DNA of 64,000 bases, from the NCBI GenBank assembly GCA_902568465.1, contig CACFQR010000001.1, positions 1-64,000 of the forward strand. The letters are read 5' to 3'. The translations under genes were made by a program, and so were the position numbers. This DNA comes from an uncultured Pelagibacteraceae bacterium. Its GTDB lineage: Bacteria; Pseudomonadota; Alphaproteobacteria; Pelagibacterales; Pelagibacteraceae. This document shows positions 8,944 to 12,624 of the stretch, in pieces; within the stretch, counting starts at the first letter, position 1; every line of letters starts with the position of its first letter. The notes below the pieces were generated by a model, which worked only from the letters and a program-made list of their open reading frames with translations, was not told where the DNA came from and made no database searches.

Positions 8944-9630
8944 GTGAAAAAAATTATCCTTGCTCTTGACACAAATAACCTAGAACAAGCAATTAATATT
9001 ACAAAAAAAATTAAGCATAAAATCTTTACCATAAAGGTTGGGTTAGAATTTTTTAATTCGCATGGAAAAGAAGGTATAAAAAAATTTAATGAGTTGGGAA
9101 TAACAAACCTCATGCTTGACCTTAAATTAAAAGATATACCTCAAACTGTTTATAAAGCAATTAAGGCACTGGATGATATTAATTTTGGTTTTATTACAAT
9201 ACATGGCCAAGGTGGAAAGGAAATGATAAAACTTGCTAAACAAGCAGTGAATGAAATTAAATCTAAACCTACAATCATGATGGTAACTATTTTGACTGCG
9301 TTGAATGATGAAGATTTAAAAACTATGGGAAATAATAATACTGTAAATGAACAAGTCGAAAAATTATCAAAAGTTGCTAGAGAAATGGAGGTTGGAGTTG
9401 TTTGCTCAGGAAACGAAGCAAAATTTGTTAGAAAAATAATAGGACCCGAACTATTAATTTTTACACCTGGTGTCCGTATGAGTGATGAAGATAAAAATGA
9501 TCAAAAACGTATTTGTACTCCTGCAGAAAGTATAAAAAATGGCGCTAATAAAATAATTATGGGAAGAAGTTTAATTACAGGAAATATTGATCATAATATA
9601 GATAAAGTGTCTAATTCTATAAAAGAATAA
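8944..9630 (+). CDS. pyrF: Orotidine 5'-phosphate decarboxylase
   Basis: GTG start; KVGLEFF, LDLKLKDIPQTV (DxKxxD retained), TPGVR, DQKRICTPAESI, GRSLI. Confidence 0.85.
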   Translation: MKKIILALDTNNLEQAINITKKIKHKIFTIKVGLEFFNSHGKEGIKKFNELGITNLMLDLKLKDIPQTVYKAIKALDDINFGFITIHGQGGKEMIKLAKQAVNEIKSKPTIMMVTILTALNDEDLKTMGNNNTVNEQVEKLSKVAREMEVGVVCSGNEAKFVRKIIGPELLIFTPGVRMSDEDKNDQKRICTPAESIKNGANKIIMGRSLITGNIDHNIDKVSNSIKE

Positions 9631-9634
9631 TTTG

Positions 9635-10861
9635 ATGAAAAAAATAAGAAAAGGAATACCTTTAATAGACCAACATGATAAAAATGGTTTTTGGGGCAAA
9701 TTTGGTGGAAATTTTATACCCGAAACTTTAAAAAAACCTGTAGAAGATTTAACTGTCTTATTTGAAAAATTAAGAAAAGATAAAAAATTTATTAAGGAAA
9801 GAGATTATTATTTTAAAAATTGGGTTGGGGCTCCTACTCCATTCATAAAACTTGAAAACTTAACTTCATATTTAGGTGGCGCTGAAATATGGGCAAAAGT
9901 TGTATCTGAAGCTAACGGCGGTGCGCACAAAATTTATAATGCAACTGTTCATAGCCTTATCGCTAAAAGAGCAGGAAAAAAATATATCGTCGGAGATACT
10001 GGAGCTGGATATGCTGGAAAAATGTTAAGCATGGCAGCAAAAAAATTTAACTTGAGGTGTAAAATATTTATGGGTGCAAAAGATATTAAAAGACAAAAAC
10101 CTAATTGTGATGCTATGCGAAAAAATGGCGCTGAAATAGTTCCTGTTTATACAGGTAGTCAAACACTTGTAGATGCAGTTAGTGAATGTATGAGATATTG
10201 GGTGTCGAATTGTGACACTACTCATATGTGTGTCGGTTCAACTGTGGGACCTAATATCTTTGTAAAAATTTGTGGGTGGAGCACATCACAAATTTCTAGG
10301 GAGCTTCATCTCCAAATTAAAAATGAATTTGGGAAAATTCCAAAGAAAATAAAATTAATAAATTGTGTTGGTGGAGGTTCATCAAGCTTTGGATTTTGGA
10401 ATGAATTTATGCATTATAACAAAAAACAATTTGAGTTTATTGGTATTGAAGCTGGCGGACCAAAAAATAGTAAAAAGCATGCTGCTCCTCTAACTTACGG
10501 ATCAAAAATTGGAATTTTGCATGGTGCAGCTCAATATGTAAATCAAAACTCTGAGGGTCAAATAGAAGAAACAGAATCTATAAGCGCAGGATTAGATTAT
10601 CCTGGAGTTTCTCCTCTACATTGTTTTCTAAAAGATACAAAGAGGGCAAGATATAGTGCGGCAACTGACGAGGAAGCTTTGAAAGCTTATCAGCTAGTTA
10701 CAAAATACGAAAATTTAAATCCAAGTTTAGAACCAAGCCATGCTTTTGCAGAAGCAATTAAAATAGCACCTAAACTGGGTAAAGATACAATTATAATTGT
10801 AAACTCTTGTGGTGATGCACAAAAAGATCGGGATATTTTAAAAAAAAGATTAGGAAAATAA
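9635..10861 (+). CDS. Tryptophan synthase beta-subunit homolog with altered catalytic motifs
   Basis: GKFGGNFIPETL N-terminus, AHK PLP lysine, CVGGGS, EESISAGLDYPGV context; KxEDLNHTG, ETGAGQHG and NLSGRGDKD replaced. Confidence 0.8.
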   Translation: MKKIRKGIPLIDQHDKNGFWGKFGGNFIPETLKKPVEDLTVLFEKLRKDKKFIKERDYYFKNWVGAPTPFIKLENLTSYLGGAEIWAKVVSEANGGAHKIYNATVHSLIAKRAGKKYIVGDTGAGYAGKMLSMAAKKFNLRCKIFMGAKDIKRQKPNCDAMRKNGAEIVPVYTGSQTLVDAVSECMRYWVSNCDTTHMCVGSTVGPNIFVKICGWSTSQISRELHLQIKNEFGKIPKKIKLINCVGGGSSSFGFWNEFMHYNKKQFEFIGIEAGGPKNSKKHAAPLTYGSKIGILHGAAQYVNQNSEGQIEETESISAGLDYPGVSPLHCFLKDTKRARYSAATDEEALKAYQLVTKYENLNPSLEPSHAFAEAIKIAPKLGKDTIIIVNSCGDAQKDRDILKKRLGK

Positions 10862-10864
10862 AAA

Positions 10865-11674
10865 ATGAGCACATCATTAATTAGTTTAGCATTTCAAAAA
10901 TCTAAAAGAGAAAAAAGACCTGCTTTGCTCACTTATACTGTAGCTGGAGATAATACTAAAAAAAAATCACTAGAAATATTAAATTCAATAGCAAATTATG
11001 CTGACATTTGCGAAATAGGTTTTCCACATAATACTCCTATCGCAGATGGTGGACAAATACAAACAGCTTCATACCGAGCAATTAAAAATGGAATTAAAAT
11101 GAGAGATATTTTTGAAATTGTAAAAAAATTTAAAAAAAATAAAAATACAAAACCTATAATTTTGATGGGTTATTATAATATGATTTACCAATATGGGCAG
11201 AACAAATTTTTAAAAAAATGTAAACAAGTAGGTGTAAATGGTTTAATTATAGTTGATCTACCTTGGCCAGACAACATGCAGTTTGCAAAAAAATGTAAAA
11301 AAAATTCTATAAATTTTGTGCAACTTTTATCACCTACTACATCTGTGGAGAGAATGAAAAAAATTATTAATAATTCTCATGACATGATTTACTATATAAG
11401 CATGTTATCTACTACTGGAGGAAGACTAAAAATATCTCCAAAAAACATTTTGAAAAATTATTTTAGAATTAAAAATATGATCAAAAAGAAAAAAAAATAT
11501 CTTGTAATCGGTTTCGGAATAACAAGTAAAAACATATCATCGTTTAAAATCTCAGATGGATGTGTTGTGGGATCGGAAATTTGTAAAAAGATCTCACAAT
11601 CTATCAAAAATAAACAAAATCCTGTCACAAATGTAAGTAATATGGTAAAAAATCTTAAGAGAAAATTAATATGA
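10865..11674 (+). CDS. Tryptophan synthase alpha-subunit homolog with altered loops
   Basis: TIM-barrel TrpA pattern CEIGFPHNTPIADGGQIQ, LMGYYN, IIVDLPWP, GFGITSK, CVVGSEI. Confidence 0.8.
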   Translation: MSTSLISLAFQKSKREKRPALLTYTVAGDNTKKKSLEILNSIANYADICEIGFPHNTPIADGGQIQTASYRAIKNGIKMRDIFEIVKKFKKNKNTKPIILMGYYNMIYQYGQNKFLKKCKQVGVNGLIIVDLPWPDNMQFAKKCKKNSINFVQLLSPTTSVERMKKIINNSHDMIYYISMLSTTGGRLKISPKNILKNYFRIKNMIKKKKKYLVIGFGITSKNISSFKISDGCVVGSEICKKISQSIKNKQNPVTNVSNMVKNLKRKLI

Positions 11675-12624
11675 ACTGGATAACACGCTGGAAAAAAATT
11701 GGAATTAAAGTAAGACAAATTTTTAAAAAGCAACCCGTTGGAGAACAAGAAACCGATTGGAAGAACTGCCCACTATGCAAAAAAATATCCTACCTTCCAG
11801 ATTTAATTAAAAACTCATATATTTGTGACTGCAGTTTTCATTTTGATTTGCCCCCAAAGATGCGTCTTGAAAGTATATTTGATTCTTCCTTCGAAATTAT
11901 TGAACCGCCAGAAAATATTGATCCAGACCCTTTAAATTTTGAAGTTGAAAATAGATACAAATACATAGAAAAAATTAAAAAATATAGAAAAGTTACTGGT
12001 CAAAAAACTGCTTTGATTTGTGCTTCTGGAAATGTTTCAAATTTAAATGCTGTTGTAGTTTGTTTTAACCCCAAATTTGGAGCGGGTCGTTTCGGTCCTG
12101 CTGAAAATGAGCATTTTTTAAAAGCAGCCAATTTTGCAATAGAAAAAAAAGTTGATATTTGGATTGTGATTTATCAAAGCTCAGGAATAGACGTACACAC
12201 TGGAGTAACAGGATTATCAGGTATGGCAAAAAGTATAGTTGCGATAAATGAAATTAAAAAAGCTGGGATCCCAACTTTTGCGATAGCCGCAAGAGCGGTT
12301 GCTGGAGGAACATATGCGTCTAGTTTTTTTATGCATGATTTTATAATGATAGAATCTAAATGTGTGGAAAATCTGCTTTTCTCTGGAAAAAGAGTAACTG
12401 CAAATATTTTAAAAGGAACTGACCAAATTCCAGAAGACTTTGGCACAGCCCCAGGAGTAATGAAATCAGGATTGGCTGATATTACTCTTGAAAATAGAAA
12501 AGAATTAAAAGACACTATAGCTAAATTAGCTAGCATTATTTTAAAGAAGGAAGAATCAAAAATATCTAATGAAGAAGAAATCGAGAATAGAGAAACTAAT
12601 ATCAAAATTTCTTCAGCTTCATAA
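11671..12624 (+). CDS. Acetyl-CoA carboxylase carboxyltransferase beta-subunit (AccD) homolog with altered active-site motifs
   Basis: MNWITRW start, CPLC/ICDC zinc-ribbon-like segment, DPLNF, AGGTYASS; immediately downstream of trpA as in accD loci. Confidence 0.75.
   Translation: MNWITRWKKIGIKVRQIFKKQPVGEQETDWKNCPLCKKISYLPDLIKNSYICDCSFHFDLPPKMRLESIFDSSFEIIEPPENIDPDPLNFEVENRYKYIEKIKKYRKVTGQKTALICASGNVSNLNAVVVCFNPKFGAGRFGPAENEHFLKAANFAIEKKVDIWIVIYQSSGIDVHTGVTGLSGMAKSIVAINEIKKAGIPTFAIAARAVAGGTYASSFFMHDFIMIESKCVENLLFSGKRVTANILKGTDQIPEDFGTAPGVMKSGLADITLENRKELKDTIAKLASIILKKEESKISNEEEIENRETNIKISSAS

Follow-up and report, generated by a model that had tools for sequence, protein, structure and literature searches.

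Replaced active-site and interface residues in the tryptophan synthase beta subunit of SAR11 bacteria

Tryptophan synthase serves as a model for allostery and channelling and as a workhorse for the production of unnatural amino acids. In a stretch of 64,000 nucleotides from an uncultured Pelagibacteraceae bacterium (SAR11), hereafter called the window, trpB, the gene for the beta subunit, encodes a protein in which the catalytic glutamate and several other textbook residues are replaced. The question raised by this locus is whether the protein is still part of a working tryptophan synthase or has taken on a different job, in one of the sea's most abundant bacterial groups. The SAR11 trpB cluster itself has been known since a 2008 survey (PMC2395257), and among the open-access papers searched its residue-level remodelling appears to be new. 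The accessible part of that Sargasso survey describes a SAR11/Pelagibacter cluster of the same organism group and with the same gene neighbours, gives a distance tree only, and contains neither an active-site analysis nor alternative trpB-trpA pairs.

The trpB gene and its relatives

The genes at the locus are the following:

8944..9630, plus strand: pyrF, conserved left neighbour (profile match, synteny)
9632..10861, plus strand: trpB, SAR11 type A (TIGR00263, 387.0 bits; PALP fold, PF00291; single TrpB in the assembly)
10865..11674, plus strand: trpA, partner gene (TIGR00262, 203.9 bits against a cut-off of 102.35)
11671..12624, plus strand: accD, conserved right neighbour, divergent (profile match, synteny)

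The type letters used here, A to F, are our own labels. The coding part of trpB (9632-10858, plus strand, frame end at 10861) specifies 409 residues, and the start is likely the ATG at 9635 because the reading frame opens with TTG-ATG. The source assembly, a SAR11 genome of 1.01 Mb in 19 contigs and 80% complete, holds one TrpB. This protein is a fold-type II PLP enzyme (PF00291) and matches the TrpB1 equivalog profile TIGR00263 over its full length with 387.0 bits, 5 bits short of the curated cut-off of 392.45, which is why it is filed as a divergent branch rather than as a standard TrpB1 member; the near miss also counts against reading it as a working TrpB. Comparison with the TrpB1 and TrpB2 profiles had been proposed in an earlier note on this DNA. 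TrpB2 shares the fold and the PLP lysine, and membership there was rejected, as the score for TIGR01415 (95.4 bits) lies far under its cut-off of 518.85. Compared with TrpB1 of Salmonella, E. coli, and Pyrococcus, length and fold are the same, the alignment is gapless around the active site, and trpA is likewise adjacent. An AlphaFold model of TrpB built with 18 close sequences was discarded (pLDDT 54.5).

The best 80 related loci in the genome collection are 81-93% identical and nearly all titled Pelagibacteraceae or Pelagibacter. A match was found in 51 of 60 near relatives, including all 19 genomes that are at least 90% complete, whereas other alphaproteobacteria carry canonical TrpB with at most 45% identity to the window protein. 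The rewriting of active site and interface is common to nearly the whole SAR11 group. Viral contigs, searched with a phage origin in mind, gave no match. Transfer from outside SAR11 was considered and set aside, since the thinly sampled genomes of the class and phylum contain nothing closely related to types A, B, or D.

Residues of the active site and of the subunit interface

Residue numbers are those of Salmonella TrpB and TrpA, whose reference sequences were checked at the named positions only. Conservation was assessed in 120 distinct SAR11 sequences with Asp109 (type A) and in 44 comparison rows without it. The relevant codons are given below, those of TrpA from residue comparison:

9929..9931, plus strand: PLP Schiff-base lysine of TrpB (Salmonella Lys87, own Lys100) after His86, in 120/120
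9995..9997, plus strand: Asp for catalytic Glu109, in 120/120
10010..10015, plus strand: Tyr-Ala for Gln114-His115, carboxylate loop and indole subsite wall (roles from PMC9512447)
10169..10171, plus strand: Val for Lys167, TrpA interface contact (Val in 115 and Ile in 5 of 120)
10382..10384, plus strand: Ser for Asn236 in the phosphate-binding GGGSN loop, in 120/120
10814..10816, plus strand: Asp for Arg379 (GRGDKD to GDAQKD), Asp in 116/120
11012-11014, plus strand: TrpA catalytic Glu49, kept
11033-11035, plus strand: TrpA Asp56, replaced by Thr
11045-11047, plus strand: TrpA catalytic Asp60, kept
11414-11416, plus strand: TrpA Thr183, kept

His86, Lys87, Thr110, Arg141, Asp305, and Glu350 of TrpB are kept, each in 120/120 sequences, and Lys100 lies within AKVVSEANGGAHKIYN. 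The replacements in the window protein are Glu109Asp, Gln114Tyr, His115Ala, Arg148Ala, Lys167Val, Asn236Ser, Gly310Ser, and Arg379Asp. Tyr114 occurs in 118 of the 120 sequences and Ser310 in all of them, position 148 is Ala or Ser, and pocket position 188 is changed together with 109, 114, 115, and 310. All 44 comparison rows have Glu at position 109. The reading of the earlier note was accurate for the Schiff-base lysine and its preceding histidine, for the exchange of the catalytic Glu for Asp (GDTGAGYAGK from 9992, just past the end of the noted interval at 9988), and for GGGSSSFG in place of GGGSNAIG (from 10370). Its view that the signature motifs are rewritten has to be tempered for KRDELNHTG, which rather than KREDLNHTG is the norm for alphaproteobacterial TrpB; similarly, NSCGDAQKD is present, one base further on at 10802-10828, and its Cys377 for Ser377 is the usual state in alphaproteobacteria.

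Asp109, found in 120/120 type A sequences, is therefore a fixed trait rather than an error. Degeneration after tryptophan auxotrophy, or an artefact of assembly or contamination, might have been suspected in a streamlined, AT-rich genome of a genus with missing trpF. It is refuted, since the new residues are conserved throughout the set; these sequences come from independent single-cell and metagenome assemblies, and internal stops are absent. Together with an intact PLP lysine, this conservation points to an active fold-type II enzyme of the TrpB line, as had been supposed.

In the standard enzyme (PMC9512447), Glu109 touches indole N1 and stabilizes the transition state of C-C bond formation. 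Gln114 forms bonds with Asn145 and Arg148 when the enzyme is closed, and His115 is part of the indole subsite lining. Of these residues all but Asn145 are changed jointly in SAR11 type A, a pattern that fits a reconstructed pocket with Asp acting where Glu normally does. The aspartate, one methylene shorter, would most likely still provide a carboxylate for binding and activating indole N1, and Tyr114, Ala115, Ala/Ser148, Ser236, Ser310, and Asp379 probably re-seat the carboxylate and the closed state. Counting against this is the Salmonella Glu109-to-Asp swap, which, according to the title of a paper cited in PMC9512447 (Brzovic 1992), altered specificity and activity; for that reason type A may accept a broader or shifted set of nucleophiles. 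The enzyme might even be promiscuous or bifunctional in vivo, making tryptophan and also accepting other nucleophiles. This would be compatible with a working tryptophan synthase and would agree with pocket residues 109, 114, 115, 188, and 310 being changed and fixed, but we regard it as unlikely given a standard gene neighbourhood with no second pathway gene alongside. Type A enzymes offer ready starting points with a different indole pocket.

The partner TrpA belongs to TIGR00262, with a score over the cut-off and Glu49 and Asp60 in place. In the Salmonella enzyme, beta-Lys167 and alpha-Asp56 form a salt bridge at the subunit interface. In type A this contact is gone on both subunits, Val or Ile at 167 being combined with Thr, Ala, or Cys at 56, while the beta-Arg141/Asp305 pair is retained. 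In each tree row, loss of one residue goes with loss of the other, yet these losses trace to only two independent events (sign test p 0.5), so that a coupled loss is suggested rather than proven. As the contact is absent on both sides, communication between the subunits would pass through other contacts. A fixed natural Glu109-to-Asp enzyme that also lacks Lys167/Asp56 indicates that residues treated as essential are replaceable.

Pathway context and the predicted reaction

The neighbourhood of trpB has the standard alphaproteobacterial arrangement, and the neighbourhood comparison revealed no second pathway gene travelling with it. In most of the order trpF immediately precedes trpB; at the pyrF-trpB junction (9630-9632) of the window it is absent, as it is from two further genomes of the window's genus (G003, G011) and from G023, and its role may be taken by a bifunctional isomerase of the HisA type. 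trpC and trpD were not found in the 80%-complete source assembly and are present in relatives. These gaps count against a full pathway in this organism, yet relatives with type A trpB carry trpC, trpD, and trpF, and the catalytic motifs of TrpC appear intact in relatives when the sequences are read by eye. Complete SAR11 genomes contain no second TrpB1, and many are without TrpB2. For P. ubique HTCC1062, the survey of Kagan and colleagues reports, in its accessible part, one trpB of the SAR11 cluster in the order trpF-trpB-trpA and judges the cluster functional in tryptophan synthesis (PMC2395257). The same strain was grown without added tryptophan, in a defined artificial seawater medium supplied with glycine, glycine betaine, pyruvate, and DMSP (PMC5069961).

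Since the pathway genes are kept, the gene is single-copy, and HTCC1062 is prototrophic, we infer that the type A enzyme makes tryptophan, and we predict with high confidence that type A TrpB serves SAR11 as its tryptophan synthase beta subunit. On this reading, SAR11 type A is a natural variant of the textbook enzyme with an ordinary function, not a new job. TrpA would cleave indole-glycerol phosphate, the indole would move to TrpB, where Lys87 and PLP would turn serine into aminoacrylate, and attack of indole on the aminoacrylate would yield L-tryptophan.

The different substrates or acceptor expected in the earlier note are not borne out by this context (a single TrpB, retained trpC, trpD, and trpF, intact TrpA, and tryptophan-free growth of HTCC1062). 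A beta-replacement enzyme using another nucleophile or amino acid donor and releasing a non-tryptophan product would agree with the replacement of Glu109, Gln114, His115, and Arg379 and with the specificity shift in Salmonella, but it would leave SAR11 without TrpB despite a maintained pathway, and we judge it very improbable.

The same holds, slightly more strongly, for a pseudoenzyme, a TrpB shell that merely activates TrpA for indole release while a TrpB2 elsewhere makes tryptophan. The replaced catalytic Glu and the TrpB2-like gene of some SAR11 genomes would fit it, and plant TSB-like proteins, in which the catalytic Glu position is changed as well, provide a parallel (PMC12727527). Those proteins, however, are extra paralogues that carry Ala, Ser, or Pro at this position and an Asp-to-Glu exchange at the partner of R141, and they do not synthesize tryptophan, whereas the single-copy type A protein keeps a carboxylate and Asp305. 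TrpB2 is moreover absent from complete genomes such as G030, G036, and G299, of which G299 carries type A. The TrpB2-like extra gene was seen at four loci (L128, L129, L130, L131), and in G027 a TrpB2-like gene is the sole TrpB found.

Separately, the window's accD is very divergent, reaching 135.8 bits where the cut-off is 317.45; it is alike in several genomes of the genus and nearer the standard form in other SAR11 genera.

Alternative trpB-trpA pairs at the same locus

Other trpB-trpA pairs occupy this locus in some SAR11 genomes. Canonical pairs are found at L164-L166. Type B was found in eight genomes of one genus and one of another (L170-L177, L179) and also at L198, type C at L167-L169, and types D (L124), E (L123), and F (L127) as single examples. 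Types B and C have lost Asp305 but not Glu109 or Lys167; type C is also without Arg141, and L179 has Lys at 141. In their TrpA, Asp56 is replaced by Glu, and in type B the catalytic Asp60 is Glu as well. The pairs swap at one locus, one per genome and always with both subunits together; the TrpB and TrpA trees are congruent in their main groups, and no coexistence of types was seen in the 22 genomes checked. G306, a single contig that is 100% complete, has type B only, and congeneric complete genomes carry type B in place of type A. Such an exchange of A and B pairs within one genus is expected if both do the same job, and swapping with less changed TrpB/TrpA pairs further argues against a different beta-replacement enzyme. 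Mutually exclusive pairs also open a route to learning which contacts alpha-beta communication needs.

The main groups have long stems, those of the window's group measuring 1.32 (TrpB) and 1.04 (TrpA) changes per site, and the tree placement of the long-branch types D, E, and F is unsure. We tentatively raise the possibility that the tryptophan synthase locus of SAR11 is a multi-type one, at which at least four deeply divergent TrpB-TrpA lineages interchange, even within a single genus, each having shed a different catalytic or allosteric part of the textbook enzyme: Glu109 and the Lys167/Asp56 contact in one lineage, the Arg141/Asp305 pair in another. In that case each lineage would have arrived independently at a functioning way of activating indole and signalling between subunits, and the diversity would perhaps be maintained by an inhibitor or by recombination. 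As a side observation, the trpB at L124:4368-5609, from the window's own genus and at the same locus, is extremely divergent, with a branch of about 4 changes per site.
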